Assembly (NCBI RefSeq): GCF_000969885.1
Contig: NZ_CP009501.1
Span: forward strand, 2,046,001-2,110,000
DNA length: 64,000 nucleotides
Direction of reading: 5' to 3'
Origin: Methanosarcina thermophila TM-1
GTDB taxonomy: Archaea; Halobacteriota; Methanosarcinia; Methanosarcinales; Methanosarcinaceae
Shown: piece after piece, positions 16,887-39,965 of the stretch
How positions within the stretch are numbered: position 1 is the first letter of the stretch
How the letters are laid out: the number at the start of each line of letters is the position of its first letter
Translations under genes and position numbers: made by a program
The notes under the pieces: model-generated
The model's input: the letters and a program-made list of their open reading frames with translations, nothing else
Told to the model about the DNA's origin: nothing
The model's database searches: none

Positions 16887-16924
16887 GGTTATTACCCTAA
16901 AATGAGACTTCCATTGCTTCCGGG

Positions 16925-16948
16925 CTGAGAACAGAGCTCTGTTCTCAG
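16925..16948. terminator. Perfect 24-bp palindrome after the disaggregatase-like gene
   Basis: CTGAGAACAGAG is followed directly by its reverse complement, 38 bp after the stop codon. As RNA it could form a long hairpin at the transcript end; as DNA it could bind a dimeric regulator. There is no T-run directly after it, so a terminator role is uncertain. Confidence 0.4.
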
Positions 16949-17422
16949 AGCTCTGAGTACCGGATGTTTTGGAATATCTCCCTGTGCTGTGTGAGAAATA
17001 TGGAGTTCTCAAGAATCTCCGGTAAGAAGAAGTATTTTAAGCAAAACATCTTAGCTTTTAGGAGTATCAAAGGCTAAGCTCACTAATTTATTAGCTGGAT
17101 ACAGCTATCAACTGAGTTGTAATATGTCTGCGGATATTTTATTTACTTTCCAATCTTTACTCTATTGTTAAGTTTTGTTCTGGAAGTTGCGAATGTTACA
17201 GAAGCCACTTGACTTTACTATCGAACCCTGAGTAGAAGGTTCTGTAGAGAAGTTCTGCAGGTAAAACCTAGATTTATCTATTTTTCAAGAAGTTATGTTC
17301 AGATTCGTATTGAATTTTTACTAAAAATATTTAAACACAAAGGCTTTTATCTATTGTAGAAATCTCCTTATGAAGTTAATTAGAACCTGATTTTTGTTGA
17401 AGAATCCCGCCGAAATAAACCC

Positions 17423-17541
17423 GAACTTAACACTGAATACAAGCAAGTGAACTCAAACTTAACACTGAATATAAGTAATTAAATTCAAACTTAACACTGA
17501 ATATAAGTAATTAAATTCAAACTTAACACTGAATATATATA
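17423..17541. repeat. 32-bp tandem repeat, about 3.7 copies
   Basis: Units start at 17423, 17455, 17487 and 17519. Copies 2 and 3 are identical; copy 1 has several changes and copy 4 is cut short where a TATATATAATATAT tract begins. The core is AAACTTAACACTGAATATAA. It lies just upstream of the flippase gene. Confidence 0.92.
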
Positions 17542-17656
17542 ATATATCCAAGACTTTAAAATTCAAAATTTAAAGGTACTTTGTATGAACAAAAGTGGCT
17601 ATTTTCATAACTTTCTTAGATCGAAATTACTAAAAACGGAGTTTTTTTAAGGTGAT

Positions 17657-19126
17657 ATGGTGTCATATCAAAAGTTTGCAAAAGACGTTGGCTTTATCGG
17701 AATAGTCCAAATACTTACAAGCCTGGGCACTTTCTTCCTGCTTCCTATAATCACGAAAACCCTTGGAACGTATTATTACGGACTCTGGGCTCAAATCAAT
17801 ATCACTGTATCACTTATCTCCCCCCTTGCACTTATGGGTCTATCTATGGGTTTTGTCAGATTTCTATCCTCTGAAACTGATACCAAAAAGATAAGGGAAG
17901 CAGTATACTCGATTCTCTTTTTTGTAACTGTATCTGGGCTACTTGCCTCACTTTTACTTTATACTTTTGCGAAACCTCTTGCGACTTTTGGATTTAATGA
18001 CCCCAACGCGGCTTATTTTATTCAGGCGGGCTCATTTCTGATTCTCGTGGGCGTAATTGAGTCTATATCTCTTTTTTATTTCAGAGTTTTCAGGCAGATC
18101 CAGAAGTTTTCTTACTTTACCCTCTTCGAAACATTTGGAAAATTACTTTTTATTCTCATTCTCCTCAAATTGGGATACGGACTTCTTGGTGTAATAGCAG
18201 CGACCTTACTTGTACAGGGGTCTATTTTTTTAATTTCTTTTTTGATTATAATATCACAGATAGGCTTCGTCATTCCCAGGTTTACTTACATAAAAGAGTA
18301 TCTGCAATTTTCCTTACCATTAACTCCCACTGCACTTATAAGATGGATTACAGAATCAAGCGACAGATACCTGGTTACTTACTTTCTCGGGCTTAGAAGT
18401 GTGGGCGTATATTCGGCAGCCTGTTCTATCGGCAACCTGATACAGCTTTTTGTAAGCCCTCTTCAGCTCATTCTCTTTCCCGAACTGTCAAAGCTGTTTG
18501 ACGAAAATAAAATGGATGAAATAAGAATTTATATGTCTCATTCTCTGAGATACTTCCTTCTTATTTCTATTCCTGCAGTTTTCGGACTCGCAGCCCTTGC
18601 AAAACCGTTGCTTGGAATCCTTACCACTGAGGATTTTCTTTCAGGCTGGTTTGTAATTCCTATTATTGCCTTCTCCGGGCTTATGGCAGGAGTCTTTCAG
18701 ATATTTGTCAATACAATGTATCTTATAAAGCGAACAAAAATCGCAACTTACATCAATATTGTTGCGGCGATTTCAAATGTATTGATCAACATTCTGCTGA
18801 TACCATCTATCGGAATTGCCGGAGCTTCACTATCAACTTTATTTTCTTACTTTTTAATGGCTGTGCTTTGCATGCATTTATCCTTAAAACACTTTAAATT
18901 TGATTTTTATTTTAATGATATCGCGAAAAGCATTCTGTCCTCAGTAGCTATGTACCTCTTTGTATCTCATTTTACTATCTCAAGCATCCTTGAACTTTTC
19001 GAGATTACATGCATGGGTGTGCTCATCTATCTGGTTGCTATGCTTCTGGTGGGTGGATTCAGTGACTACGAACTTTCTTTAATACGAAGGTATTTATTCA
19101 GAGTCGAGAAAGAAGTCAAGCACTAA
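17657..19126 (+). CDS. Polysaccharide flippase, MOP superfamily (Wzx type)
   Basis: 489 residues and about 14 membrane helices, the size and topology of Wzx/RfbX lipid-linked oligosaccharide flippases. It begins with SYQKFAKDVGFIGIVQILTS, followed by the typical first-helix FLLPIITKTLG. It should move lipid-linked glycan units from the inner to the outer face of the membrane. GGTGAT directly precedes the ATG; the GTG codon next to it is an alternative start. It stands alone between long gaps, downstream of the disaggregatase-like gene. A second flippase lies at 29354-30817, so the locus may export two glycans. Confidence 0.9.
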   Translation: MVSYQKFAKDVGFIGIVQILTSLGTFFLLPIITKTLGTYYYGLWAQINITVSLISPLALMGLSMGFVRFLSSETDTKKIREAVYSILFFVTVSGLLASLLLYTFAKPLATFGFNDPNAAYFIQAGSFLILVGVIESISLFYFRVFRQIQKFSYFTLFETFGKLLFILILLKLGYGLLGVIAATLLVQGSIFLISFLIIISQIGFVIPRFTYIKEYLQFSLPLTPTALIRWITESSDRYLVTYFLGLRSVGVYSAACSIGNLIQLFVSPLQLILFPELSKLFDENKMDEIRIYMSHSLRYFLLISIPAVFGLAALAKPLLGILTTEDFLSGWFVIPIIAFSGLMAGVFQIFVNTMYLIKRTKIATYINIVAAISNVLINILLIPSIGIAGASLSTLFSYFLMAVLCMHLSLKHFKFDFYFNDIAKSILSSVAMYLFVSHFTISSILELFEITCMGVLIYLVAMLLVGGFSDYELSLIRRYLFRVEKEVKH

Positions 19127-19318
19127 AACCTTTATTCTCAAGGTTTTCGGGATTTTTCCCTGCTCTGGACACACTTACTCTGAACACTCAAATTTTAAAA
19201 AATTTTATACCTTCTGTACCCGCAGATCACAATAAAACCCCAAAAGAGTATGCTGGCATAAAAGTGCAGGTACTAACTATTATATAGCCGGCAAAGTAAC
19301 AATTTTGGAAAAACGCCA

Positions 19319-20284
19319 TCAGGGATATTGCATTAATCTCTCCCCAAGTAATGCTCTTGCCGTCTCCCTCACACTTCTCTCTGATGAATAGACTGGCTTC
19401 CATCCCAAAGCCTTCATTTTTTCAATCCCTAGCCTCATCTTTGGCACATCACCTTTCCAGCCCCTGCTTCCTCCAGTATAAACAAATTTAACATCAGAAA
19501 GCCCCATCTCTTCTATGACAATTTTTCCTATCTCTGTTGCACTGATAGTATCCTCGGAACCGATATTGAAAATATTTACCTTCTCTCTGCTTTTCTCTAT
19601 TAAAAATATTATTGCATCGACACATTCCGATACGTGAAGGTAGGATTTTTCCTGCTTGCCATCGCCCAGAACTTCAAGTACATTGGGGTTTTTCTCCAGC
19701 TTCTTTATGAAATCTATCGTGATCCCATGTGTGCTGCGCGGACCAACAATATTTGCAAAACGAAATATCCATGCCCGCATATCGAAGGTGTGAGAATATG
19801 AAGTAATAAGGGCTTCACAGGCTAATTTGGAGGCGCCATAAAGGGATATAGGAATAAGAGGACCGTAATCTTCCGGAGTTGGCATAATACTAGCTTCACC
19901 ATACACAGTAGAGGTAGAAGTAAATGCAATTTCTTTAACGCTGTTTTTCCTCATAGCTTCCAGAAGATTGTAGGTTGCCAGAATATTCTGTTCCAGGTGA
20001 GCTCTAGTATCCGTGGCTCCTAGCCTGACATCAGGATTTGCAGCCACGTGGCAAACAATGTCAATATCTCTACAGGCGGCCTCTATAGCTTCCTGGTCAA
20101 GAAGATCTCCTTTTATCAGAGTAAAATCTGGATTTTCAAGATGGTGTTCTATAAACTGTAATTTCCCTGAACTGATGTTATCAAAAACAGTAACCTTATT
20201 TCCTTTTTCAATTAAACGGTCTACAAGGTGACTTCCTATAAAACCGGCTCCTCCTGTCACAAGTATTTTATTCTTTGTAAGCAT
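19319..20284 (-). CDS. NAD-dependent nucleotide-sugar epimerase (GalE/WbpP-like)
   Basis: 321 residues, extended short-chain dehydrogenase. The NAD motif GGAGFIGSHL is at residues 11-20. The catalytic S/TxY-K set is visible as TSTSTVYGE near 123 and YGASK near 149. The expected role is 4-epimerisation of UDP-glucose to UDP-galactose or UDP-GlcNAc to UDP-GalNAc. GGAG lies 8 nt before the ATG. The divergent galU-like gene and the nearby UDP-glucose dehydrogenase place it in precursor supply. Whether it takes N-acetylated sugars cannot be read off; dTDP-sugar epimerase/dehydratase activity is the main alternative. Confidence 0.87.
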   Translation of the reverse strand: MLTKNKILVTGGAGFIGSHLVDRLIEKGNKVTVFDNISSGKLQFIEHHLENPDFTLIKGDLLDQEAIEAACRDIDIVCHVAANPDVRLGATDTRAHLEQNILATYNLLEAMRKNSVKEIAFTSTSTVYGEASIMPTPEDYGPLIPISLYGASKLACEALITSYSHTFDMRAWIFRFANIVGPRSTHGITIDFIKKLEKNPNVLEVLGDGKQEKSYLHVSECVDAIIFLIEKSREKVNIFNIGSEDTISATEIGKIVIEEMGLSDVKFVYTGGSRGWKGDVPKMRLGIEKMKALGWKPVYSSERSVRETARALLGERLMQYP

Positions 20285-20479
20285 GAAAAGTTCTCCAGAT
20301 GATCTTCATTTCATATATTTTATAATGTGTTAAAATAATTATGGTTCGTTTTTACCCTATTCTCTACATGAATCTAGGCAAATGATGATGGAAAAATTAA
20401 AGATGTTATGGCTGAAAAAGTACTTTAATCCAACTGTAAGGATAACCTTTTCACAGATATTTTATTGGAGGGTTTTATA

Positions 20480-21367
20480 TTGACTATTAAAAAAGCGCTT
20501 ATTCCAGCTGCCGGACTTGGAACCCGTTTCCTGCCTGCCACCAAATCAATGCCAAAAGAGATGCTTCCTATTATTGACACCCCTGTAATCCAGTATGTTG
20601 TAGAGGAAGCCATTGAATCGGGAATTGAAGATATTATCATTATTACAGGCAGAGGTAAAAGGGCAATTGAGGACTATTTCGATGATTCCCCCGAACTCGA
20701 GATGCACCTTGCGAAAAAGCGAAATACTGAACTTCTAAAGCTTGTAAGGGATGTTTCCTCTCTTGTGGATATTCACTATATCCGACAGAAAGAACCCAAT
20801 GGACTTGGAGATGCAGTCCTCAGAGCAGAAAAACATATTGGAGATGAGCCTTTCGCCGTGCTTCTAGGAGATGATATTATTGTGAATGACAAACCCTGCA
20901 CGGCTCAGCTCATTGATAATTTTCAGAAATATGGAAGATCCACACTCGCAGTCGAGGAAGTTCCTTATGAAAAGTTGAGCAGCTATGGGATTATAAAGGG
21001 GAAACCTCTCAATGATTCTCTCTATGTACTGGAAGATATTGTTGAGAAGCCGTCACCTGAGAATGCTCCTTCCAATATAGGTGCCATAGGGCGTTACGTT
21101 TTCACCCCTGAAATTTTTGATTGCATAAAAGAAGCCGGAACAGGCGTGGGAGATGAAATTCAGTTGACCGATGGAATCCGGCTCCTGAACAACACCCAGA
21201 CAATCTACGCTTGCAGGTTCAAAGGAAAAAGATTTGACACCGGCGACAGGCTCGGGTATGTAAAATCGATAATTGACTTTGCTCTTAAAAACGAAAATCT
21301 TAGAGATGATGTACTTGAATATCTGAGAGATATTCTGACAACAGTGGATGACCCCTCTGACAAATAA
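20480..21367 (+). CDS. galU: UTP-glucose-1-phosphate uridylyltransferase
   Basis: 295 residues, the usual GalU length. The nucleotidyltransferase signature GLGTRFLPATKSMPKE begins near residue 10, with VEEAIESGIEDIIIITGRGK near 45, LLGDDII near 130 and FTGDRLGYVKS-like FDTGDRLGY near 265. The enzyme makes UDP-glucose from UTP and glucose-1-phosphate. The TTG at 20480 is the start, because GGAGGG lies 7 nt upstream; an in-frame TTG at 20465 precedes that site. UDP-glucose would feed both the UDP-glucose dehydrogenase convergent downstream and the epimerase upstream. Confidence 0.93.
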   Translation: MTIKKALIPAAGLGTRFLPATKSMPKEMLPIIDTPVIQYVVEEAIESGIEDIIIITGRGKRAIEDYFDDSPELEMHLAKKRNTELLKLVRDVSSLVDIHYIRQKEPNGLGDAVLRAEKHIGDEPFAVLLGDDIIVNDKPCTAQLIDNFQKYGRSTLAVEEVPYEKLSSYGIIKGKPLNDSLYVLEDIVEKPSPENAPSNIGAIGRYVFTPEIFDCIKEAGTGVGDEIQLTDGIRLLNNTQTIYACRFKGKRFDTGDRLGYVKSIIDFALKNENLRDDVLEYLRDILTTVDDPSDK

Positions 21368-21452
21368 GATCCACATAAATAAGGCAGCTAGAGACCAGAA
21401 AAGTTGAACTAATAATTTTGAATAAAAAAGGGGACACGGTGTCTGCTAGTTT

Positions 21453-22736
21453 TTACCAGCAGAGGCCCTCATAATCTACTTTTTTCGAATTAATTACCTT
21501 TCTTCCGTCAATTACTATCTTTTCTTTCATGGCTTCAAATTCGGAGTCAAGTTGTTTGAATTCATCCCACTCTGTCATTACGAGGCAAGCATCAGCCCCC
21601 TGAAGAGCATCTCTAGCATTCCCAAAGTATTCAACTGTCGGAAAGATCCGTCTCATATTTTCAATTGCCATAGGATCATAAGCTGAAACCTTTGCCCCAA
21701 GCCTGAGGAGTTCGGCAATGACAGGGATAGCTCTGGATTCCCTTACATCATCTGTTTCGTTCTTAAAAGCAAGCCCAAGGACTGCAACCTTTTTTCCCTC
21801 AAGGCTTCCAATTTTCCTCTGAAGCATCTCGATCATTAGAATCGGCTGTTTTTCATTTACTTCAATTACAGATTCCAAAAGTAATGGAGAATATCCGATT
21901 TCTTTCGCCTTTCTTATAAGCGCCTTTACATCTTTTGGGAAACAGGATCCTCCAAATCCCGCACCTGAGTTCAAAAATTTCGGGGATATTCTGGAGTCTT
22001 TACCTACGGCTTCCATAACCTCATATGTATTAATTTTTAATCTTTTACAGATATTTCCAATCTCATTGGCAAAAGATATCTTAGTTGCAAGAAGAGAATT
22101 ATTTGCGTATTTGATCATTTCTGCTGTAGATGGATTTGTGCGGATGATTCCGCATTTAAAGGTTTCGTAAAGTTTCGAGACAAGATCTCCGGATTTCTGA
22201 TCAATTGCTCCAATGACTATTTTGTCTGGATTCATGAAGTCGTAGACTGCTTTTCCTTCCCTGAGAAACTCAGGATTCATTGCAACTCCAAAGTCTTTTC
22301 CAGCTATCTTCCCTGAAGATTCTTCAAGCAGGGGAATGACAAACTTCTCAGTTGTCTCAGGCACCACCGTGCTTTTGACAACAACTACGTGGTATCCTTC
22401 TTTTTTTGCCAGGACTGTGCCTATGCTTGTTGTCGCCGCACGGACGATTGAAAGGTCTATGCTTCCATCTTCTGCTGAGGGAGTTCCTACGCATATAAAA
22501 GAAATATCCGTCTTCCTGATTGCAGATTCATAATCAGTGGTTGCTGTAAGATTTTTTCCGGCATGTTTTTGTAAAAGCTCCCCTAAGCCTTCTTCATATA
22601 TTGGGGGGATTCCTTCGTTTATCAGATCCGTTTTTCTCTTATCAATATCTAAACAGATTACTTCATGCCCGAGTTCTGCAAAACATGCGGCTGTGACTGA
22701 GCCCACATACCCTGAACCTATAACGGAAATTTTCAT
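21453..22736 (-). CDS. UDP-glucose 6-dehydrogenase
   Basis: 427 residues, the standard length. The NAD motif GSGYVG lies at residues 7-12. CVGTPS is near 85, AEMIKYANNSLLATKISFAN near 205 and the catalytic cysteine is in GFGGSCFPKD near 257-266. NETDDVRESRA near 325 is the usual UDP-binding segment. The enzyme oxidises UDP-glucose to UDP-glucuronate, the uronic acid donor for acidic polysaccharides. The ATG at 22734-22736 has AGAGGT 8 nt upstream; in-frame codons further out lack a site. It converges on galU, which makes its substrate. UDP-GlcNAc dehydrogenase is a less likely alternative. Confidence 0.92.
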   Translation of the reverse strand: MKISVIGSGYVGSVTAACFAELGHEVICLDIDKRKTDLINEGIPPIYEEGLGELLQKHAGKNLTATTDYESAIRKTDISFICVGTPSAEDGSIDLSIVRAATTSIGTVLAKKEGYHVVVVKSTVVPETTEKFVIPLLEESSGKIAGKDFGVAMNPEFLREGKAVYDFMNPDKIVIGAIDQKSGDLVSKLYETFKCGIIRTNPSTAEMIKYANNSLLATKISFANEIGNICKRLKINTYEVMEAVGKDSRISPKFLNSGAGFGGSCFPKDVKALIRKAKEIGYSPLLLESVIEVNEKQPILMIEMLQRKIGSLEGKKVAVLGLAFKNETDDVRESRAIPVIAELLRLGAKVSAYDPMAIENMRRIFPTVEYFGNARDALQGADACLVMTEWDEFKQLDSEFEAMKEKIVIDGRKVINSKKVDYEGLCW

Positions 22737-22931
22737 AAATTGAACCTCTTTATTGAGTGGAGGGGTAATAAATTCCAAATCATATTTATTTTTTGATAAA
22801 CACTCTTCTATATCCCTTCTGAAGAAAGTCAATTTTTCTTATTTATACAACTCATCTCGTCAGTCTTAATAGATTCATATAGTTTAATGCTTATATCCTG
22901 TATAGTTAGGATTTAATATGTGTTATGACAA

Positions 22932-23240: not shown

Positions 23241-23753
23241 ACCTCTTTGAGATTATAAATTTCTTTATTATAAGCATTTCGTTCATTCCTTTGTAATTCA
23301 TTTTCTTGTCTAAATATTAGAGGATGGATAATGCTTATTTTTTATTTCTGAAAACCGAAGAGTGCGCAATCATATTTTCTAAAATTTTTAATTATGTTAG
23401 TTCAGTAACTTAGTTTCCATACTTATTTATTCTTGAGTCATTTATCTTCTAGTCGTAATATTGTTTGTTGGCGACTATATCTGAAGTAAAAATTTGAGTT
23501 TCATAAGGACACTATTAGGGGATGTTTGAGCTAGGGGGACGTTTGAGGCAGGGGGACGCTTGAGCTAATGAACCATAAAAATGATTCTATGTTCGGATAG
23601 AGTAAGATATTGGAAGTCTATCTGACAGAAAGGTTCGAGATAAAAGCTGGATGATAAACAAGATTCAATTGTTATTTTCTCTAAATAAGGCATAAATAGA
23701 CTGTCCATCTGTCTTAGTGTAATTATAGGAAATGTCAATTGGGGAGTGAAAAG
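23241..23753. other. Intergenic region upstream of the DUF354-led operon
   Basis: About 510 bp, AT-rich. The only structured element is a 17-bp repeat in three copies at 23518-23567. The GGGGAGTG at 23741-23748 is the ribosome binding site for the TTG at 23754. Confidence 0.55.
23518..23567. repeat. 17-bp tandem repeat, three copies
   Basis: Units begin at 23518, 23534 and 23551 and follow the pattern GGGGGACGTTTGAGCTA with one to three changes each. They are strongly G-rich on the plus strand, unlike the surrounding AT-rich DNA, and lie about 190 bp before the DUF354 gene. Confidence 0.85.
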
Positions 23754-24827
23754 TTGAGGGTTCTTGTCGATATAGGGCATCCAGCCCATGTCCACTTTTT
23801 TAAAAACGCTATATGGAGTCTTGAGAAAAAAGGGCATCAAGTAATGGTAGTTTCGCGAGATAAGGATGTAGTTATAGAGCTCTTGAACGCCTACGGGATC
23901 CCACATACGGTTTTGAGCAAAGTAAAGCCAGGGAAGGGAAATTTGCTTGAAGAATGGTTCATAAGAGAGTATAAAACTTTTAAAATTACCCAGCAATTTA
24001 AACCTGATATCTTCATAGGTGTCCTTTCTCCAGTTGTAGCTCAAATAGCCAGGATACAGAGGAAAAAATCTATAATTTTTAACGACACCGAACATGCAGT
24101 ACTGGCTCAAAAACTAACCTATCCTTTCTGTGACATAATCTGTACTCCTTCAAGCTATCTAAAAGACGAAGGAAAAAAACAGATAAAGTACAATGGTTAC
24201 CACGAACTGGCTTACCTTCATCCATCTTATTTTACTCCCCGTCCTGAGATTCTGAAAGATCTGGGGGTAGAAGAAGGTGAACCTTTCATAATCCTTCGCT
24301 TTGTCTCATGGGGTGCACACCATGATGTCGGCCAGCATGGAATCAATAATAAATTATCACTCGTTAAGGAAATTAAAAAATTCGGAAAAGTATTCATAAC
24401 CTCAGAAGGACCGCTGGCAAAAGAGTTTGAAAAATATAGAATCCGAGTTTCTCCCGAGAAAATTCATCACCTGCTCTATTATGCCACTCTGTATATTGGT
24501 GAAGGAGCAACTATGGCTGTTGAAAGTGCAATCCTGGGAACGCCTTCGATCTATGTTTCCACTCTGGCGGGAACTATGGGAAACTTTTCCGAACTCGAGA
24601 ATAAGTATGGTTTACTCTTCAACTACAGTGATTCGGAATCAGCTCTAGCAAAAAGTATAGAGCTTCTCAAGGATCGGGAGCTTAAGAAAACCTGGAGATT
24701 GAAAAGGGCTGCTCTTCTCAAGGACAAGATCGATGTGACCAAGTTCATGGTCCAGCTCATAGAAAAAGTTCCTGAGAACAAATCTGAATCTGTTTTATCT
24801 TCGGTCTCGGATGAGTCCTATGCATGA
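23754..24827 (+). CDS. DUF354 protein, predicted GT-B-fold glycosyltransferase or epimerase
   Basis: 357 residues. It begins with RVLVDIGHPAHVHFFKNA, the signature start of DUF354, a family with the fold of UDP-GlcNAc 2-epimerases and MurG-like transferases. GEGATMAVESAILGTPSIY near 250 matches the donor-binding region of that fold. The TTG at 23754 is chosen because GGGGAG ends 7 nt before it. It is first in a run of overlapping genes (deacetylase overlaps by 17 nt), so it belongs to an operon for one glycan. Precise reaction unknown. Confidence 0.82.
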   Translation: MRVLVDIGHPAHVHFFKNAIWSLEKKGHQVMVVSRDKDVVIELLNAYGIPHTVLSKVKPGKGNLLEEWFIREYKTFKITQQFKPDIFIGVLSPVVAQIARIQRKKSIIFNDTEHAVLAQKLTYPFCDIICTPSSYLKDEGKKQIKYNGYHELAYLHPSYFTPRPEILKDLGVEEGEPFIILRFVSWGAHHDVGQHGINNKLSLVKEIKKFGKVFITSEGPLAKEFEKYRIRVSPEKIHHLLYYATLYIGEGATMAVESAILGTPSIYVSTLAGTMGNFSELENKYGLLFNYSDSESALAKSIELLKDRELKKTWRLKRAALLKDKIDVTKFMVQLIEKVPENKSESVLSSVSDESYA

Positions 24828-25860
24828 ACTACTGATGCAAAACCAGGATATATGGGATCTTTTCACTCGAAAAGAAGAATATTCTCCCAAAAAGCTGGAC
24901 GAACACCAGCGTTTTCTTTTCTCCGAAGAAGATCTTCGAAATGCTTCTGAGCCAGTGGTATCCAGGTATCTTATTAAGCATGGAATGCAGGTCGAATTTC
25001 CTGAGAACAAATCATTTGCCGTCTGTTTAACTCATGATGTGGATGATATTTATCCACCTCTCTCACACAGCTTATTGTCATCAGTTTACAGTCTTAAACG
25101 GCTGGATCTCAAGGGTTCTGTAGATCAGCTAATGTGGAAATTGAGGGGAGCAGGCTACTCCCCCTACCTTAATTTTTCTAAGATAATGGATATTGAAGCC
25201 AAGTTTGGAGCAAAGTCCTCTTTTTATTTCATTACTGCAGAAGCTGATCCAGTAAGATTAAGGTATGATATTGAGGACATAGAGGATCATCTAGGAGAAA
25301 TCTCAGATAGGGGATGGGAAATAGGTCTTCACGGAGGTTACTATTCGTATAACAGTCTGGAAAAAATAAAACAGGAAAAAGAGAGACTTGAAGCTGCCCT
25401 GGGGAGAAAAGTCATAGGTTTTCGTAATCATTACCTCAGGTTCAAAACTCCCGATTCCTGGGAAATACTTGCAGACGCAGGTTTCGGTTATGATTCAACT
25501 TTCGGGCATAGATACTCAATTGGCTTCAGGAACGGAATGTGTCATCCTTTTAATCCATATAACCTTAACACAGGAAAAGAGATTGATATTCTCGAAATTC
25601 CACTTGTTATAATGGATGTAGCGCTTTTTGCTACTAGCAAATCTTTCGAGGAAGCCTGGGAGCGTACAAAGAACCTTATTGATATTACAGCAAGCCTCAA
25701 TGGCGTTATTACCCTGCTATGGCATAATTTCGTTTTCAGTTGCGAATTTAGAAAAGATTGGGCAAGGCTGTATGAGAAGGTGCTTCATTACTGCTACGGA
25801 AAAAGAGCCTGGATTACAAGCGGAGAAGAAATTTACAGGTGGTGGAGAGATGGGGTCTGA
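24811..25860 (+). CDS. Polysaccharide-deacetylase-like protein with atypical metal motif
   Basis: 349 residues. An N-terminal segment (IWDLFTRKEEYSPKKLDEHQ) is followed by a NodB-like domain. Motif 1 is CLTHDVDD near 70-77. Motif 2 reads GLHGGYYSYN near 172, so the first His is present but the second metal His of HxxxH is not. YDSTFG lies near 228. The family removes acetyl groups from N-acetyl sugars with a divalent metal. A paralogue lies at 32977-34131; a 28-residue block starting GFRNGMCHPFNPYNL is identical, and 56 bp of its DNA (25525-25580) are identical too. The gene overlaps its neighbours on both sides, so it is within an operon. The activity may differ from classical deacetylases. 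Confidence 0.8.
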   Translation: MSPMHELLMQNQDIWDLFTRKEEYSPKKLDEHQRFLFSEEDLRNASEPVVSRYLIKHGMQVEFPENKSFAVCLTHDVDDIYPPLSHSLLSSVYSLKRLDLKGSVDQLMWKLRGAGYSPYLNFSKIMDIEAKFGAKSSFYFITAEADPVRLRYDIEDIEDHLGEISDRGWEIGLHGGYYSYNSLEKIKQEKERLEAALGRKVIGFRNHYLRFKTPDSWEILADAGFGYDSTFGHRYSIGFRNGMCHPFNPYNLNTGKEIDILEIPLVIMDVALFATSKSFEEAWERTKNLIDITASLNGVITLLWHNFVFSCEFRKDWARLYEKVLHYCYGKRAWITSGEEIYRWWRDGV

Positions 25861-26749
25861 TATAAAAGGAAAGTATTTGCTGATTACCCCCGCCAAGAAT
25901 GAAGAGCAAAACCTGCTCGAAGTTTCGAAATCTGTAATAGGACAGAAACTAAAACCTGAGTTATGGGTTATAGTCGACGACGGGAGTACCGATGGAACAC
26001 CACGTATTCTCGAAGACTTGCAGGCAAATCACTCCTGGATCCGTAGCATAAAATTGCCTCCCAGACCAAGAGACATTACTTTTCACTATAGCTATGTCTG
26101 CAAACAGGGCTTTGACTACGCGCTTGAATACTGTAGAGAAAATAATATTGAGTTCGAGTATATAGGTCTTCTTGATGCTGATACAGTTCTGGAGGAGAGC
26201 TATTTTGAGAAGCTTCTGACTGAGTTTGAAAAGAATAGTTCTATTGGGATTGCAAGCGGTGGGATATATTATGAGAATGACGGAAAGCTTTCTCTAGAAG
26301 TGACTAACAAAAATCTTCCTCGTGGGACAGGAAGGATCTGGAGGAAAGAATGCTTTTTTGAGACTGGCGGCTACCAAGTTGAACCATCTCCAGATTCGAT
26401 CTCCAATATAAAAGCTCTCCTGCGAGGCTGGCAGCTCATACAATATGCTGATGTCGTTCAGATACAGAAACGTAAAACAAGCGCAGCAGATGGACTCTGG
26501 AGTGGATATACCAAAAATGGCTGGATGGCTTACTATCTTGGGAAAAGACCTCTCATTGCTCTTGTAAACGTGCTTTATCTCTCATTGAAACCTCCCTATT
26601 ATACAGGTGCTGCTTACTTCTTGGGTTATTTTAGTTCAGCAATCAAGAGGGAGAAAAGAATTGAAGATCCTGAGATCAGGAATTACTACAGAAATCAGGG
26701 ACTTTCAGGAATATTATCCCAAATCCTGGGAATATCCAGCCGGAGCTAA
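25850..26749 (+). CDS. GT2 glycosyltransferase
   Basis: 299 residues. LLITPAKNEEQNL near residue 10, VIVDDGSTDGTP near 40 and the DxD-type LLDADTVLEESYF near 105 define a GT-A family 2 enzyme. TGGYQVEPSPD near 185 corresponds to the acceptor-side region. A hydrophobic stretch near 240-265 may touch the membrane. The ATG at 25850 overlaps the end of the deacetylase gene by 11 nt, with AGGTGGAG just upstream; an open frame extending left from here lies inside the deacetylase gene and is not used. Its place between deacetylase and GT4 genes implies a shared glycan. Confidence 0.85.
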   Translation: MGSDIKGKYLLITPAKNEEQNLLEVSKSVIGQKLKPELWVIVDDGSTDGTPRILEDLQANHSWIRSIKLPPRPRDITFHYSYVCKQGFDYALEYCRENNIEFEYIGLLDADTVLEESYFEKLLTEFEKNSSIGIASGGIYYENDGKLSLEVTNKNLPRGTGRIWRKECFFETGGYQVEPSPDSISNIKALLRGWQLIQYADVVQIQKRKTSAADGLWSGYTKNGWMAYYLGKRPLIALVNVLYLSLKPPYYTGAAYFLGYFSSAIKREKRIEDPEIRNYYRNQGLSGILSQILGISSRS

Positions 26750-26822: not shown

Positions 26823-28043
26823 TTGAAGATGCTTTTCCTAGATATGGTAAAGCCTCTTTCTCTTGCCGATGGTTCGCTTATCCATAGATACGAACTTGTT
26901 AGCAATCTAGCCAGGTTTGAGAATGAAATCCATATATTTACTGCTGGTAATACCCCTCTATCGAATATCAAGAATATACATAGCCATAATATCCCACCTG
27001 GAAATTTCCTTTCACTCATTGTCAATTACTTCAGCAGTTCTATAAGCCTTCTCAGTTCCGAAACTTTTGATGTGCTGTATACCCGCAATCCTAACTTTGG
27101 ATTTCTTGCTGGACTTTTCTGCAAGACCAGATGTAAAAAAATAGTTTACGAGTTAAATGGGATTCCTGAGGACGAAAAGAATCTTTTCAGAACAAAATAT
27201 GAGGAGGACGGATTTTCACAACCACGCAAAAAGAATTATTTTTCAAACCAGTATTTCTCTGTGCATGCAAAGCTTAAACTGTTTATTCTCAAAAAAGCTC
27301 TCGGGTTTTCAGACAGAATTATTGTCGTGACTCCAGGTATAAAAACAAATCTTGAGAAGATATATAACATTCCTGGAGAAAAAATAGTTGTAGTCTCCAA
27401 TGGAGCAAATACCTCCCTGTTCAGGCCGAAAGAGCAGGAGATCTGTAGAAAAGAACTCGGTCTGGAGCTTGAAACTCCCTATGTATGTTTTGTGGGCAAC
27501 CTTGCTCCTTGGCAGGGGGTCGAGTATCTGGTAAAGGCAGCTCCATCTATACTTTCCAGGTTTCCAGAATGCCATTTCCTGATTGTCGGAGATGGAGTTA
27601 TGAAAGACAACCTTCTCAAGCTCTGCAGGGAACTCGGAGTTGAGGATAAGTTTATTTTTACAGGCGTGGTTGCCTACGATCGCGTGCCTCTTTACATTAA
27701 TGCGAGTGATATATGTGCAGCTCCTTTTATACTTGCCAGAAATGCAAAAATAGGTCTTTCTCCTCTGAAATTATACGAGTACATGGCTTGCGGAAAAACT
27801 GTAGTTGCAAGTAATATTAGTGGTGTTTCCGATGTACTTGAGGCTTCAGGAGGAGGAATTCTTGTCCCTCCTGAAAACCCGAATGCTCTTGCAGAAGGAA
27901 TCATAAAGGTGCTTGAAAATCCGGGTTTGGGGAAGAAACTGGGCTCAAAAGGTTTAAGTTATGTTACTGAAAATTACAGCTGGTACAGCGTTGCGAAAAA
28001 GGTTAACGAAGTCTGCAAATCAGTACTCGAAGCCGAGAACTGA
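26823..28043 (+). CDS. GT4 glycosyltransferase, WbuB-like subgroup (paralogue of 12500-13684)
   Basis: 406 residues, GT-B fold. YVCFVGNLAPWQGVEYL near 222, FLIVGDGVMKDNL near 255 and LKLYEYMACGKTVVAS near 320 mark the nucleotide-sugar domain. As in its paralogue, the first Glu of E-x7-E is not conserved while the second is (YEYMACG). TTG at 26823 or ATG at 26829 may be the start; AGGTGAT lies just upstream. It follows the GT2 gene by 73 bp and is probably part of the same transcript. The donor sugar is unknown. Confidence 0.87.
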   Translation: MKMLFLDMVKPLSLADGSLIHRYELVSNLARFENEIHIFTAGNTPLSNIKNIHSHNIPPGNFLSLIVNYFSSSISLLSSETFDVLYTRNPNFGFLAGLFCKTRCKKIVYELNGIPEDEKNLFRTKYEEDGFSQPRKKNYFSNQYFSVHAKLKLFILKKALGFSDRIIVVTPGIKTNLEKIYNIPGEKIVVVSNGANTSLFRPKEQEICRKELGLELETPYVCFVGNLAPWQGVEYLVKAAPSILSRFPECHFLIVGDGVMKDNLLKLCRELGVEDKFIFTGVVAYDRVPLYINASDICAAPFILARNAKIGLSPLKLYEYMACGKTVVASNISGVSDVLEASGGGILVPPENPNALAEGIIKVLENPGLGKKLGSKGLSYVTENYSWYSVAKKVNEVCKSVLEAEN

Positions 28044-28122: not shown

Positions 28123-29130
28123 ATGGACGAAATTGAAGTTAGAGAATTAGCGCCATCTGAATACAAAGAATGGGATCTGCTTGTAGAGAAAGCTGAGCCT
28201 GGTACAATTTTCCATACCAGTGAATGGCTTGGAATCTGCAGGGATGTCCTGTCAAAAGATCTCAGAATCTACGGCTGTTTCAGAAAGGGCGAACTTGTAG
28301 GAGGCTGTCCGCTTTTTGTTAAAAACATTAAGGGAATCTTGAAAGTAGCAACCTCGACCTGTGATATGACCAGCTATAGTGGACCTCTTGTAAAAGAGAG
28401 TGCCAGTTCCAGGACAAGTAAACGTATACAGGAGATTCATGAAATTCTTAATCCCCTCAGGGAGTTTCTTTGCAAGCAGGGATTTGATAGTATTCATCTT
28501 ACGCTTTCTCCCGGGTTTAAGGATGTGAGACCTTTTACCTGGTATGGATGGGATTCCACCGTGCATTATACTCATTACTTAAATCTGAAAGATAATGTGG
28601 ATAACAACCTTTCAAGAAAGATCCGCAGAGAACTCAGAACTGCAAATGAGGCAGGACTTAAGACCAGGGTATGGAATGATCCTGAGACATATTACCATCT
28701 GCTCTCAATGGTTTACGAAAAACAGAATTTAGCGCCTCCCCTTCCCAGAGAATTTTTCGAGAGAGTATTTAAGCTGATTCAGGAAAAAGATATTGGTTAT
28801 ATGTTTGTCACAGAGACTCCTGAAGGTGAAGCTATTGCAGCTCACCTGAATCTGTATGGAAAGAAAAGCACCATAACCTGGACCTCAGCCCTGAACCCGG
28901 ATTTTGGTCGTCTGGGTCCCAATGCTCTTCTATATTATAATGAATTTCTTGATCTTAAGTCCCGAAACTTCGAGTACATGAATGTAATGGCAGCGAATAT
29001 TCCCAGGTTTGCGGATTTTATCATGGGTTTCTCTCCTGAGCTAATTCCCTATTATAGCGTGACTCTGGAGAGCAAAAAATATTCAATCGCAAAAACCCTG
29101 TATAAAATCACTCACAAAGAAACTTTCTAA
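28123..29130 (+). CDS. FemAB-like / GNAT-fold acyltransferase
   Basis: 335 residues. The sequence FHTSEWLGICRDVL near residue 32 and the later SRKIRRELRTANEAGLKTRV near 165 fit the FemAB-like, BioF2-type acetyltransferase family (Acetyltransf_6). In bacteria such proteins transfer amino acids from tRNA to lipid-linked precursors, or work in exopolysaccharide systems. This archaeon has no peptidoglycan, so an acyl or aminoacyl modification of a lipid-linked glycan is a possible role. GGGG lies 6 nt before the ATG. It lies 80 bp after the GT4 gene and may close the operon. The donor is unknown. Confidence 0.72.
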   Translation: MDEIEVRELAPSEYKEWDLLVEKAEPGTIFHTSEWLGICRDVLSKDLRIYGCFRKGELVGGCPLFVKNIKGILKVATSTCDMTSYSGPLVKESASSRTSKRIQEIHEILNPLREFLCKQGFDSIHLTLSPGFKDVRPFTWYGWDSTVHYTHYLNLKDNVDNNLSRKIRRELRTANEAGLKTRVWNDPETYYHLLSMVYEKQNLAPPLPREFFERVFKLIQEKDIGYMFVTETPEGEAIAAHLNLYGKKSTITWTSALNPDFGRLGPNALLYYNEFLDLKSRNFEYMNVMAANIPRFADFIMGFSPELIPYYSVTLESKKYSIAKTLYKITHKETF

Positions 29131-29353: not shown

Positions 29354-30817
29354 TCAGATTTTGTTTTTTATATTCACGAGAAAAGCCGAAAAAATCTTCC
29401 TGAATGTAGGGTCATCACGAAGGGTTAGACCGTAATAAATAGGAGTTATGATGACAGTTGCAAGAAGGATAATATAAAAGTTTGCAGAGAACACTTCAAG
29501 CAAAATTAATGGGATCGATACAGCGATTCCTATTGCTGCATATTTAATAAGGATCTCTACGCTTTCCATTCTATTAATTCCTGCAAGATTAAGCAAATAC
29601 GCATTATTCCAGAGCCAGAATATAACTCCTGTTAAGCTGAAGAGTCCGAGGGCAAACTCAGGGCTTCCGTACATTCCTCCTATAACCAGTGCTACTATCC
29701 TGGAGATAAGAAGAACAATGCTGAAGGTAAGCCAGACCTTCTGTTTCTCAAAGATGCTATAGAGAGTTGAGATAGGCGAGGACAGGAAAACGAGGAATAT
29801 CCAGGGCACAAGGATTTTCACATAAGTGCCTGATACGTGCCAGCCCTCTCCGAAAGCAAATGTAAAGATTTCCTCTCCTAGGATCAGCAGAAGTATCATT
29901 GGGAATATGCCTATTAGAATTAGCTTTTTGTAAACCTCGCTAACAATAGTTTTCATATCCCCTTCTCCATTCCCGTTCTTTACCTCACTGATTCTCTGGA
30001 AGAAAACCTGCTGAATAGCTGTCCCGATAAGCCCCATAGGCATATTTACTACTTGATTCGCAAGCGAAAAATATCCGACAACACTTGTACTGTAAAAGTA
30101 CACAAGCAAAAAGGTAGGCACCTGTGGCGAAATTGAGTTTGCGAGTGTGGACCAGGAGCTAAATAAGGGAAAGTTTTTATACCGAATAGCTAACTCTTTC
30201 ATTTTTTTTATCGAAACCTTCTTGAAGATTTTTAAATCTTCTTTTGCACCCTTTAGCATGAACAAGTCCGCTAATCCGTATCCAATTGTGTATCCTGCTA
30301 TGAGACCCAGAGGCGATACTGCACTCCATATTGGGGCAACTAACTGTAATATTTTGGTTGACAATGTGTTTAGAACTTTGGAGCCTGCTATAATTCCAAA
30401 ACGTACTTTTCTTGAAAGCCAGTAATTCTGAACAAAGAAAAGCCCGTTAAAAAATACTATTAGAGGTAGATAAATTAAATACTCTGAGATTCCAGGAGCA
30501 TTAAGGATTCGCTCAATTTTATCTGGGAATATTATTACAGTTGCAGCCGTGAGTAAAGATATAAAGATAACTAATACCGTGCAAAGAGAGACTACGTTTG
30601 CAGAATCTTCTTCGGTTTTTGGTAGCATAATAGCATACTGGTATGAAAAAGTAGAGAAAATTACCAGTATTCCTGATACCGAAACAAAAAGCTGAAAAAC
30701 TCCCAAGTCATCAGGGCTGTAAATTCTTGTGACTAGGGGTACAAGAAGTATAGCCAGAACCTGTGAAGCAACACTTCCTGATACAAGTTTCAAAACATTA
30801 GCGATAAAGTTTGACAT
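29354..30817 (-). CDS. Polysaccharide flippase, MOP superfamily (second copy)
   Basis: 487 residues with about 14 helices. The N-terminus (LKLVSGSVASQVLAILLVPL, then VTRIYSPDDLGVFQLF) is the classic start of Wzx/PST-type exporters. LFSSWSTLANSISPQVPTFL near 215 is also typical. It should flip a lipid-linked glycan. It is not closely similar to the flippase at 17657-19126, suggesting a different cargo. The GT-C-like gene 93 bp upstream on the same strand may be co-transcribed. The ribosome site is weak. Confidence 0.9.
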   Translation of the reverse strand: MSNFIANVLKLVSGSVASQVLAILLVPLVTRIYSPDDLGVFQLFVSVSGILVIFSTFSYQYAIMLPKTEEDSANVVSLCTVLVIFISLLTAATVIIFPDKIERILNAPGISEYLIYLPLIVFFNGLFFVQNYWLSRKVRFGIIAGSKVLNTLSTKILQLVAPIWSAVSPLGLIAGYTIGYGLADLFMLKGAKEDLKIFKKVSIKKMKELAIRYKNFPLFSSWSTLANSISPQVPTFLLVYFYSTSVVGYFSLANQVVNMPMGLIGTAIQQVFFQRISEVKNGNGEGDMKTIVSEVYKKLILIGIFPMILLLILGEEIFTFAFGEGWHVSGTYVKILVPWIFLVFLSSPISTLYSIFEKQKVWLTFSIVLLISRIVALVIGGMYGSPEFALGLFSLTGVIFWLWNNAYLLNLAGINRMESVEILIKYAAIGIAVSIPLILLEVFSANFYIILLATVIITPIYYGLTLRDDPTFRKIFSAFLVNIKNKI

Positions 30818-32976: not shown

Positions 32977-34131
32977 TCAGTAGTTTTCCTTCCACCATCT
33001 GTATATCTCGGCTCCTGATGTCATCCAGGCATTTTTTTGAGTACAATACTCCAGGATTCTTTTATAGAATTCCAGATAATCCCCTTGCATATACGTGTTA
33101 TGCCAGAGGATTGTAAGTACGCCTTTATAATTTTCAACTGTATCAATGAGCTTTTCCGTAAGTTTCCATGCCTGATTGAAGTTTAGATGCATCTGGCTGA
33201 AAAGGGTGGTATCCATAATACCCAGTGGAATTTCCAGAATATCGATTTCTTTTCCTGTGTTAAGGTTATATGGATTAAAAGGATGACACATTCCGTTCCT
33301 GAACCCCACACAATCATGATAGCCGAAGGTTGAATCGTAACTGAAGCCCGCCTCTGTAAGGAATTCCCAGGTTTCTGGAGTTTTAAATCGAAGATAATGA
33401 TTCCTGTAGCTTATAACCTCCTTTCGGAGTACTTTCTCCAGTTTTTGTTTTTTGTTTTTCATTTCTATTAGGTTATTGTAAGCCTCATGACCTCCGTGAA
33501 GCCCCACCTCCCATCCATTGTCCAAAATATAGCCGAGTTCTTCTTCCACTTCTTCAATGCTGAAAGTAAAATCTTCGTCTCCAGGATCAAGGGTCAGAAA
33601 ATAAAATGTGGATTTTGCCCCATAGCCTTTTTCCAGTTTCATAATTTGTCTAAAATTCCACAAAGGGTTCCAGGTTTTGTTTATTCTTGAGAACGGAAGG
33701 ATAGAAGCCTGTACGAACTGACCCCTTTTGAGAGCTTTTACTGCTCTGGCTGCAGTATTCAGCATTCCTGGGCATACAAAATCGATATCATGAGTCAGAC
33801 ATACGGCAAAATTTCTTCCTTCAGGATATTCGAAACTTAGCCCATTTTTAATCAAAAATTTCGAGACATGAGGCTCAAAAATATTTCTTTGACTGCTTAA
33901 GTAATATGAGAATCTTCCATACTTATCTAAGAGGATAGGGTCGTACTCTTCTTTTTTTGTAAATAAATCCCATAGCTCCCTATCTTCCATTATTTTCTCA
34001 GACAAAGTATTCTCTTTATTCTTATTGCTTGGAGCTTCAACTTTATTAAATATTTGATTAACTCTGGTTCCTTTATTTTTATCTTTTAGGAACTTATCTC
34101 GATGAGCTTTTTGTATCAATCCTACCCCCAC
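32977..34131 (-). CDS. Polysaccharide-deacetylase-like protein (paralogue of 24811-25860)
   Basis: Up to 384 residues. The ELWDLFTKKEEYDPILLDKY segment matches the N-terminus of the paralogue, so translation could begin at the ATG at 33988-33990 (337 residues); the earlier GTG at 34131 would add a polar extension of 47. Motif 1 is CLTHDIDF, motif 2 GLHGGHEAYN, where a second His lies at +3 rather than +4. YDSTFGYHDC follows. The same 28-residue block starting GFRNGMCHPFNPYNL is identical in both, and 33248-33303 is identical in DNA to 25525-25580. Expected role: deacetylation or a related metal-dependent step on a glycan. It stands upstream of the GT-C and flippase genes on the same strand. 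Confidence 0.8.
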   Translation of the reverse strand: MGVGLIQKAHRDKFLKDKNKGTRVNQIFNKVEAPSNKNKENTLSEKIMEDRELWDLFTKKEEYDPILLDKYGRFSYYLSSQRNIFEPHVSKFLIKNGLSFEYPEGRNFAVCLTHDIDFVCPGMLNTAARAVKALKRGQFVQASILPFSRINKTWNPLWNFRQIMKLEKGYGAKSTFYFLTLDPGDEDFTFSIEEVEEELGYILDNGWEVGLHGGHEAYNNLIEMKNKKQKLEKVLRKEVISYRNHYLRFKTPETWEFLTEAGFSYDSTFGYHDCVGFRNGMCHPFNPYNLNTGKEIDILEIPLGIMDTTLFSQMHLNFNQAWKLTEKLIDTVENYKGVLTILWHNTYMQGDYLEFYKRILEYCTQKNAWMTSGAEIYRWWKENY

Positions 34132-37871: not shown

Positions 37872-39965
37872 TCAGGTATACTCTATAGTGAGTTTGGGTC
37901 TCTGGTCTTTGTTTTGCCAGTTGGTACTGTAGAAAGCAATATAATTTTCATCCTCCTCTCGGGCTTTAATTAGGAAACCTGTATTTTTGTACTTACCGCT
38001 TATATATTCCTGAACAAGGTCTGTTACGTCCAGTTCAATGTAGCGGTTGCCAGGGATTTCATCTCCACTGATAGTTATTGAAGCATATGGGATGCTGCCT
38101 TGGAAGACTCCATTCCTGTCATACCAGTCTCCTCCTGAATTTCTCCAGGGAATGTTGGTTTCTCTTTGCTCCCACGTAACATGTTCTTTGCACCATTCCA
38201 CAGGTCTATATACTTCCAGTACAGTATCCTTCGGTCTCATTTGATTCTCCGGGTAGTACCAGAATAAAGACAGAGTTGCTTTTTCGATCTGGTCAGTTTG
38301 ATTGAATGAACCCAACTCAAAGATTATAAGACCCCTGTAAATGCCTCCATCTGGTGTCATTCCTATGTCAATATATTCACTTTCACTGAAAGTCATGTTA
38401 GGAGCCTCTTGCTTTAACCTGTTGTCAGAAATGACGTATGGTAATGCAATTTTAAGATTTTCCACTTCACCAGACTGCAGTGAAAGGTCTAAAAAAAATC
38501 TTTTAAGAAATCTTAAAAACTCTGAAAATATTCTTTCAATTTTTGATTCAAACTCTTCTTCCTGTCCTGCCTGGACTCCACTGTCATCTATCTCATAAGG
38601 CGTCTGAGGTCCGGCAGACATAGCTTCACTCCAGGGGAAATCCTCTCCTAAAGACTCATTTCTACTCAACTTCGCCGCAAGTTCAGAGTCAGCCTCGACA
38701 TCTGAAGTAGAATTTGCACCAAGATAATTCCCACCTGCATTATTGGAAAGGCAATTATTTTCTAGGATAAATGAATGGGTATCTCTCAACTGATTGTATA
38801 CAGCATATCCTTCTCCGGCTGCAGGACTCGGCTGAGTATTAATTATTATATTATTTCTCACGATAGTCGTATATCCTGAGCCCGGAGCCAAAAATTCTTT
38901 AGTAACCTGTTTATGGGCAATAGCAGCGCCGTAGCACTCATCGAATTTATTGTTCTCTATCAAAGTGTTTTGAAAACCGTTAAGTACTATTCCTCCTGCC
39001 CAGTCTGCACCGCGGTTAATTCCAGTTTTATAAAATTTGTTGTGATGAATATGGATATCTCTTGCAGAGTCTTTAGAATATCCGTTCCCGTAACCTGTAA
39101 TCCAGATACCTGCCGCATTGGTCTCGTATAGCAGGTTATTGCAGATCTCAATATCATTCATCACAGTTGAAGGACCGATCTTCTGGATTTCAATCCCTGC
39201 TCCTCCTTCTCCTTCGGAATTGATAATATTGTTATGGAACTTTACGTGATTTGTATTGTAAATTCTTAAACCGCTGTTTGTTCTACATGTTATTTTATTG
39301 TTCCAGGCTTCTACATTTGAGGAATAGATGGCATAGAGAGCATCATGCCCTAATTTATAAACCCGGTTATTGTAAAACTGAATATCTGAACATTTTACGA
39401 CTTTAAGCCCATCCCCATGACTGTCATGCATGTACATGTCGTGGACTTTTATATTCTCACAATCAGTGAAACTAATCAGATTATGATATCCTTTGCCCCT
39501 GCTTTTACCATCGTTATTATCATGATTTCCATCAATCTCAAACCCTCTTATGGTAATATCATGATTTCCGGCACTGTCCATTTGCGTAATCAAAGGCTTT
39601 CCTTCCGGCCAACCTGCATTATCCTCAAGCTTGATCACAGCTGTAGGATCTCCCTGTAGAATAGTATTACTCCCTATATAGATAGTGTCCGAAATAACGT
39701 ATGTATTAGGTCCTTCCAAATGAACGGTTGTAAGCTCTGGATGCTCCGCAACATATGCAAGAGCCTGGTTTATTTCTATCTGATCATCAATTCCATCGCA
39801 ATTAAAGTCCCCATTTCCATTGGTAGAAACACGAACTACTGTATCTGTATCAGATGGGGTGGATAAAGTTATGGTCACACCTGCAATTAGAGAAATAAAA
39901 ATTATACTAAAAAGTAGTAATTTTTTTCTATCTCCCCATTTATACATTCGCCTTTTTCCGTCCAT
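37872..39965 (-). CDS. Disaggregatase-family beta-helix protein with one C-terminal repeat domain
   Basis: 697 residues. An N-terminal signal/anchor helix (KKLLLFSIIFISLIAGVTIT) spans about 15-34. The aspartate-rich GDFNCDGIDDQIEINQAL loop and NosD-like beta-helix rungs (NNRVY, NNIINS, NNKFDE, NNCLSN) follow, to about residue 430. A linker of about 60 residues, with a hydrophobic stretch FLRFLKRFFLDLS, precedes a single disaggregatase-related domain from about 513 (DNRLKQ, LSLFWYYPEN, GGDWYDRNG, YIELDVTDLV, GFLIKAR). The ATG at 39963-39965 has GGGGAT 6 nt upstream. Expected to act outside the cell on matrix polysaccharide; activity inferred. Confidence 0.84.
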   Translation of the reverse strand: MDGKRRMYKWGDRKKLLLFSIIFISLIAGVTITLSTPSDTDTVVRVSTNGNGDFNCDGIDDQIEINQALAYVAEHPELTTVHLEGPNTYVISDTIYIGSNTILQGDPTAVIKLEDNAGWPEGKPLITQMDSAGNHDITIRGFEIDGNHDNNDGKSRGKGYHNLISFTDCENIKVHDMYMHDSHGDGLKVVKCSDIQFYNNRVYKLGHDALYAIYSSNVEAWNNKITCRTNSGLRIYNTNHVKFHNNIINSEGEGGAGIEIQKIGPSTVMNDIEICNNLLYETNAAGIWITGYGNGYSKDSARDIHIHHNKFYKTGINRGADWAGGIVLNGFQNTLIENNKFDECYGAAIAHKQVTKEFLAPGSGYTTIVRNNIIINTQPSPAAGEGYAVYNQLRDTHSFILENNCLSNNAGGNYLGANSTSDVEADSELAAKLSRNESLGEDFPWSEAMSAGPQTPYEIDDSGVQAGQEEEFESKIERIFSEFLRFLKRFFLDLSLQSGEVENLKIALPYVISDNRLKQEAPNMTFSESEYIDIGMTPDGGIYRGLIIFELGSFNQTDQIEKATLSLFWYYPENQMRPKDTVLEVYRPVEWCKEHVTWEQRETNIPWRNSGGDWYDRNGVFQGSIPYASITISGDEIPGNRYIELDVTDLVQEYISGKYKNTGFLIKAREEDENYIAFYSTNWQNKDQRPKLTIEYT

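Follow-up and report, generated by a model that had tools for sequence, protein, structure and literature searches.

The stretch of DNA analysed here, referred to as the window, covers 64 kb (G000:C1:2046001-2110000) of the Methanosarcina thermophila TM-1 genome (G000), which is a single contig of 3.13 Mb. At positions 28123-29130 of the window, on the forward strand, lies an ORF of 335 amino acids with an ATG start, encoding an acyltransferase of predicted FemABX (tandem GNAT) fold. This protein, hereafter the window FemAB, closes an operon within a surface-glycan locus. The operon starts with the gene for a DUF354 (PF04007) protein (23739-24827), followed by genes for a deacetylase of predicted CE4 fold (24811-25860), a GT2 glycosyltransferase (25847-26749, for which the ORF list gives an earlier TTG start at 25628), and a GT4 glycosyltransferase (26823-28043). 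The whole run is on the forward strand, with overlaps among the first three genes and gaps of 73 and 79 bp before the last two, and the order ahead of the FemAB gene is the one described in an earlier note on this DNA. The conserved left flank of the operon consists of a GalE-type epimerase (19319-20284, reverse strand), a GalU-type nucleotidyltransferase (20465-21367, forward strand), and an AglM-type UDP-glucose 6-dehydrogenase (21453-22832, reverse strand; 600 bits, cut-off 670). The last gene was considered as WbpA and ruled out, its NCBIfam match being AglM/UDP-glucose-dehydrogenase-like. On the other side, a Wzx/MOP-type flippase (29354-30817, reverse strand) is a conserved neighbour, and a second VimE-like deacetylase (111 bits, VimE cut-off 440) lies at 32977-34131 on the reverse strand.

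Close orthologs of the window FemAB (74-96% identity) are found in 28 of the 29 other genomes of the genus, the exception being G025, which has a distant match only, and dN/dS against six orthologs ranges from 0.05 to 0.21; the ORF is thus not a chance one, and the gene is under purifying selection and conserved in Methanosarcina. Among 20 Methanosarcina regions, 13 carry the full run from DUF354 to FemAB (DUF354 is split in one, L038), one (L044) has ORFs inserted ahead of FemAB, and one is a degraded second copy of G000. The remaining five hold a solo FemAB in unrelated surroundings with no deacetylase nearby. These intact solo copies (L040, L043, L046, L047, and L048) are located away from any deacetylase or glycosyltransferase gene, and the solo position appears to be conserved, as L040, L043, L046, and L047 have unrelated neighbours in common. 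The second copy in G000 (C1:1003719-1004627, L050) is broken by in-frame stops, while related genomes (e.g., L048) retain an intact counterpart that is 70-73% identical.

Residues 164-289 of the window FemAB match Pfam PF13480 (Acetyltransf_6; E=1e-12, 48.9 bits, cut-off 22), and the best NCBIfam match is TIGR03019 (pepcterm_femAB; 3.8e-13), which at 49.2 bits against a cut-off of 260.35 misses the equivalog level. A further PF13480 match in G000, at C1:2200740-2200916 (24.1 bits; region L066), is not recovered by the FemAB profile. Used as a single query sequence, the window FemAB finds no Fem protein at E<=1, whereas with a profile built from 11 archaeal homologs, Staphylococcus FemX (6SNR) is matched at 5e-20, Weissella FemX at about 1e-12, and 9WQW, an aminoacyl-tRNA-dependent peptide synthase, at 1e-10. 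The AlphaFold2 model of the protein (pLDDT 83.1, pTM 0.81) matches FemA (VIA Z 23.6, 291 residues, rmsd 3.9), FemX (Z 23.5, 291 residues, rmsd 3.5), and Sbb17 (Z 22.2, 270 residues, rmsd 3.1), with FemA, FemX, and the aminoacyl-tRNA-dependent synthases Sbb17/Sba18 spanning Z 21.9-23.6 over 267-299 residues. MprF/aminoacyl-PG synthases follow at Z 15.9-17.3, and the CoA-using tandem GNATs reach at most 15.3, the value of mycothiol synthase. Since FemA, FemX, and Sbb17 are matched above the MprF types and mycothiol synthase, the predicted fold of the window FemAB is that of FemABX, a tandem GNAT arrangement along the whole chain, in agreement with the FemAB-like assignment of the earlier note; the fold by itself does not identify the acyl donor. 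A FemAB in an organism without peptidoglycan had also been thought odd, but a profile search finds FemAB-like homologs in 107 of 294 genomes of the same phylum. In common with the FemABX family (Weissella FemX, Staphylococcus FemA/FemX), the window protein has the tandem GNAT fold and detectable profile similarity; it differs in that no peptidoglycan precursor is expected in Methanosarcina, and in the residue discussed below.

The catalytic lysine of FemX is Lys305 (PMC12945691). In the profile alignment, the Phe-Lys pair of FemX (304-305) aligns with Phe299-Ile300 of the window FemAB. Among 117 aligned archaeal homologs (5 of 121 FemAB ORFs fell outside 290-420 amino acids and were left out), the position holds Lys in 74, Ile, Ala, Val, or Thr in 35, and Tyr, His, or Phe in 8. 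In a tree of 107 rows, from which 10 Methanosarcina near-copies were omitted, the window FemAB falls in a set of 25 rows, all 25 of which are without the lysine, with support of 100/100, and this Lys-less clade covers six families of the phylum. Gly61, Cys62, Trp143, Met289, and Asn292 are invariant in 35 of 35 sequences and Asn287 is found in 34; around the lysine site, the changes specific to the clade are Asn287, which replaces Asp/Glu, together with Met289 and Asn292. The mean net charge of domain 2 is +2.4 in the Lys-less clade (+2 in the window protein) versus +5.6 in the Lys-bearing archaeal homologs, a difference that, judged from sequence, would not favour tRNA binding. A wider profile search adds outlying members; the three profile-selected genomes outside the alignment have Ala in all three copies (G097), Tyr (G209), and Lys (G128), so that the profile threshold selects the clade and not the residue.

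The deacetylase of the operon (24811-25860) has VimE (NF053580) as its best NCBIfam match, at 100.2 bits, which misses the cut-off of 440, a level reached in none of the 39 genomes searched. Its predicted model (pLDDT 72.8) matches 3rxz (VIA Z 23.1, 248 aligned residues, rmsd 3.7), and the protein is assigned, from model and motifs, to a CE4 fold with catalytic motifs. The motifs THDxD, GLHG, RxH, and LWHN are conserved; across 11 sequences there is no variation in His-Asp-x-Asp, in RxH, or in the His residues of GLHG and LWHN, and we take these motifs to have their usual catalytic roles. Of the usual HxxxH, the second His is missing.

The association between FemAB-type genes and deacetylases extends well beyond this operon, in which the deacetylase is three genes from FemAB and not adjacent. 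Across 68 regions, 57 of 101 FemAB-type genes adjoin a CE4 deacetylase on either strand, compared with 17.0 on average and never more than 29 in 2000 shuffles; eight of the regions came from the ortholog search with the window FemAB and 60 were hand-chosen from the better-scoring archaeal matches listed, and the genes were not dereplicated. When clustered at 60% identity, 36 of 68 FemAB clusters have an adjacent deacetylase on the same strand. A GT4 control, in which 1 of 74 GT4 genes adjoins a deacetylase, was replaced by the shuffle test; the control is weak, since many of these genes stem from repeated sampling of a single Methanosarcina operon whose GT4 gene never adjoins the deacetylase. 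The deacetylase type that accompanies the Lys-less clade is marked by a KEEY motif near the N-terminus and has VimE as its best NCBIfam model. Outside Methanosarcina, where a FemAB gene has a deacetylase on the same strand no more than three genes away, the nearest one is of this type for 8 of 10 Lys-less versus 3 of 59 Lys-bearing genes; no same-strand deacetylase lies in that range for another five Lys-less and 15 Lys-bearing genes. Loci selected by the deacetylase (the best 75 of 221 relatives, 34 from Methanosarcina and 41 from elsewhere) give a complementary view: in the 41 non-Methanosarcina loci, a same-strand FemAB, of either the Lys-less or the Lys-bearing kind, adjoins the deacetylase in 15 and lies up to four genes away in 2, a Wbp-type operon is present in 1, and neither is found in 23, a figure uncorrected for short contigs and including two loci (L208 and L219) with an opposite-strand FemAB adjoining the deacetylase. 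On a contig titled Chloroflexi (MAG; L223 8013-10133), a KEEY-type deacetylase adjoins a Lys-bearing FemAB, which may mean that the pairing extends to bacteria or that the bin is mixed.

At the level of whole genomes, the window FemAB clade is present in 21 of 294 genomes, the full-length VimE-like type in 40, and both in 20; thus, 20 of the 21 clade genomes hold both (Fisher 5e-19), as do 13 of 14 without Methanosarcina, in tests that ignore shared ancestry. The thresholds were set by the authors. The FemAB threshold (profile A4, at least 200 bits) is backed by a gap in local scores, where Lys-less members score at least 295 bits and others at most 161, with G128 between them at 238, whereas that of the deacetylase (profile A3, at least 380 bits) is a choice within a graded list. 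Profile A3 was built partly from neighbours of these FemAB genes; when the seven genomes that gave rows to it are removed, 14 of 15 clade genomes hold both (5e-14), and 8 of 9 when Methanosarcina is removed as well (2e-8). The two genes lie within 5 kb of each other in 19 of the 21 genomes, the exceptions being G209, where the pair is far apart, and G128, the only clade genome without the VimE-like type, whose FemAB retains the lysine. The link between the acyltransferase and a deacetylase proposed in the earlier note is therefore supported, both by CE4 adjacency above the shuffles and by the VimE-like type in 20 of 21 clade genomes.

At its left edge, the window holds part of a Wbp-type operon on the reverse strand (61-2917), comprising genes for a UDP-GlcNAc 3-dehydrogenase (WbpB-type step; 61-1008; NF040723, 528 bits, above the cut-off of 450), a PLP sugar aminotransferase (WbpE-type step; 1044-2168; assigned by position and family, under equivalog cut-offs), and a hexapeptide (LbH) acetyltransferase (WbpD-type step; 2192-2917; likewise by position and family, under cut-offs). 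The operon continues to G000:C1:2043416-2045973 (L065 17317-19874), with a nucleotide-sugar dehydrogenase just outside the window (L065 18438-19874) and then a terminal VimE-like deacetylase. The WbpB-type gene is thus over its cut-off, and the adjacent WbpE-, WbpD-, and dehydrogenase-type genes are assigned at family level only; from these assignments, the operon is predicted to make a 2,3-diacetamido-uronic acid. The order WbpD-WbpE-WbpB-dehydrogenase-deacetylase recurs in Methanosarcina, and a Wbp-type operon ending in a VimE-like deacetylase occurs in 17 of the 34 Methanosarcina versus 1 of the 41 other loci among the best 75 of 221. In 13 of 24 genomes of the genus, a further VimE-like match, partial in G002 and G018, lies 29-45 kb from FemAB on the same contig. 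In Methanomicrobium mobile (L219), Wbp-type genes, deacetylase, and a Lys-bearing FemAB lie within about 8 kb.

This combination resembles the Wbp/Vim system of Porphyromonas gingivalis and Tannerella forsythia, where one genome likewise combines Wbp-type genes for a 2,3-diacetamido-uronic acid with a deacetylase of the VimE type and a transferase of the GNAT type (PMC7468200 and PMC13086638). The P. gingivalis enzymes WbpA, B, E, and D are expected to yield UDP-GlcNAc(3NAc)A, and the role proposed for the CE4 protein VimE is removal of an acetyl group (PMC7468200 and PMC4031482); when vimA was exchanged, the linker sugar carried Gly in place of Ser (PMC7468200). Deacetylation followed by N-acylation is the scheme described there, and it is also the one proposed here for the archaeal pair. 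The present system differs in being archaeal, in a deacetylase far under the VimE cut-off, and in the absence of the FemX lysine, and the likeness to VimA lies in the VimE-type partner in the operon and the Wbp-type genes, not in a sequence comparison. In the Caulobacter holdfast, HfsH and HfsK likewise combine a polysaccharide deacetylase with a FemX-like acyltransferase in a surface glycan, and acylation of the freed amine has been proposed; that system differs in being bacterial and controlled by c-di-GMP (PMC5362036). The suggestion that a deacetylated amine is re-acylated, made in the earlier note, gains support from the genetic precedent of VimE/VimA (PMC7468200) and from the HfsH/HfsK proposal (PMC5362036).

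Because the FemAB and the sugar deacetylase travel together, they probably swap a group on a sugar nitrogen. The favoured reading, to which a probability of about one half is assigned, is that the window FemAB is an N-acyltransferase of FemABX fold that completes a deacetylate-then-re-acylate pair. Its partner, the VimE-like CE4 deacetylase, would strip the N-acetyl group from an amino sugar of the surface glycan at the sugar-nucleotide or lipid-linked stage, and the FemAB-fold enzyme would then attach another acyl group, in the likeliest case an amino acid, to the amine thus freed, ahead of flipping and polymerisation. The likeliest acceptor would be the 2,3-diamino-uronic acid derived from the left-edge Wbp-type genes, as in the Porphyromonas Wbp/Vim system. 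The activity as an N-acyltransferase, the order of the steps, and the acceptor are what we infer for the window FemAB, while the donor, aminoacyl-tRNA or another activated acyl group, is the least certain part. The aminoacyl step is the weakest point of the scheme: the fold favours the aminoacyl-tRNA idea of the earlier note, which is weakened by Ile300 at the site of the FemX catalytic lysine, with the lower charge of domain 2 also against it. Counting against the reading as a whole are the five solo copies in Methanosarcina, the 23 of 41 deacetylase loci from elsewhere that lack a same-strand FemAB up to four genes away, the three-gene distance between deacetylase and FemAB in the window's own operon, and scores under the TIGR03019 and VimE cut-offs. 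More speculatively, and on balance improbably, the Lys-less FemABX branch with its VimE-like partner would represent a novel type of N-acyltransferase whose active site is distinct (Ile, Ala, or Val for Lys, Asn for Asp/Glu, and the invariant Cys62). Combined with the Wbp-type operon, it would provide the archaeal equivalent of the Wbp/Vim sugar, perhaps even as a covalent link joining glycans to surface proteins.

A deacetylase/acyltransferase pair is, as a principle, already known from VimE/VimA and proposed for HfsH/HfsK, and amino-acid decoration would not be new to archaeal glycans in general, as the earlier note had supposed: Methanococcus N-glycans carry threonine at position 6 of a mannuronic acid, the enzyme for which is not identified in the review cited (PMC2952790). 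That case likewise places an amino acid on an archaeal surface glycan, near a diacetamido-glucuronic acid, but differs from the change proposed for Methanosarcina in not being an N-acyl swap (PMC2952790). The Lys-less clade, its tie to a VimE-like deacetylase, and an N-acyl swap in archaea were not found in the literature searched. The results replace a guess with a two-enzyme module that can be tested in a genetically tractable genus. This module is a candidate source of archaeal sugars with an N-acyl, possibly an aminoacyl, group; until now, such a modification has been associated with a bacterial sugar that anchors proteins. Moreover, a FemABX branch that retains fold and partner without the catalytic lysine offers a direct test of the importance of this residue.

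Among the alternatives, acetyl-CoA or another acyl-CoA may be the donor, with the FemAB re-acetylating or acylating the amine without amino acid or tRNA, which is possible although rather unlikely. The isoleucine at the lysine site, the less basic second domain, the changes at 287, 289, and 292 near the site, and the invariant Cys62 are consistent with such a donor, whereas the CoA-using tandem GNATs give the weaker structural matches (Z at most 15.3 versus 21.9-23.6), and deacetylation followed by plain re-acetylation would be futile. In addition, neither half shows by eye the canonical CoA pyrophosphate loop.

Alternatively, the acceptor could be the GalNAc of methanochondroitin, given the GalE, GalU, and AglM-type neighbours and three disaggregatase-related proteins in the window. 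The same enzyme pair would then serve methanochondroitin, a repeat of GalNAc, GalNAc, and GlcA whose biosynthetic genes are described as unidentified in a 2025 review (PMC12369344), with its GalNAc deacetylated and the FemAB-fold enzyme re-acylating or capping the chain. The flanking genes, conserved in synteny, would supply UDP-GalNAc and UDP-GlcA. This assignment is nevertheless doubtful, as the repeat is reported with N-acetyl groups only and methanochondroitin is called unique to Methanosarcina (PMC12369344), whereas a Lys-less FemAB with the same KEEY-type deacetylase also occurs in Methanoculleus (L195 and L206), Methanocalculus (L182), and a Methanomassiliicoccales archaeon (L155); furthermore, this type of deacetylase is linked to the Wbp-type operon. 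As a separate observation, the three disaggregatase-related proteins, which contain PF08480 and in two cases also PF06848 and CBM96, are encoded within 14199-22832 and 37872-41960, and these two segments, with GalE, GalU, the AglM-type gene, glycosyltransferases, and two flippases, constitute a candidate methanochondroitin locus.

A loss of catalysis in the Lys-less clade, with the protein acting as a scaffold for the deacetylase or as its sugar-binding partner, is quite unlikely. The catalytic lysine is indeed lost throughout the clade, but the strong purifying selection and the many invariant residues argue against a dead enzyme, as does the persistence of solo copies without a deacetylase. 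FemX itself is described as working by a substrate-assisted mechanism without a classical base (PMC12945691), so that the loss of one residue need not be fatal.

Least probable of all is an archaeal member of the XrtA/PEP-CTERM (exosortase-linked) exopolysaccharide system of TIGR03019, for which TIGR03019 as best NCBIfam match of the window FemAB, the TIGR04063 match of the GT4 protein, a TIGR03006-like deacetylase in the window, and an archaeosortase-type protein in G000 (TIGR04178, 73.3 bits, cut-off 23) would speak. However, the first three matches are all far under their cut-offs (49 of 260, 128 of 442, and 113 of 276 bits, respectively), and the archaeosortase gene lies about 260 kb away (G000:C1:2331780-2332064, L233). 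The window FemAB also lies in a different clade, TIGR03019 being closer to the Lys-bearing sister clade: L061 scores 173.5 bits, the window FemAB 49.2, and six other members of the Lys-less clade 19.5-40.2. The Pfam exosortase model PF09721 finds no match in G000 and thus misses the archaeosortase-type protein detected by TIGR04178. The TIGR03006-like deacetylase of the window lies at 42756-43655, and its relatives either adjoin a Lys-bearing FemAB (L062) or lie two genes from one (L061).
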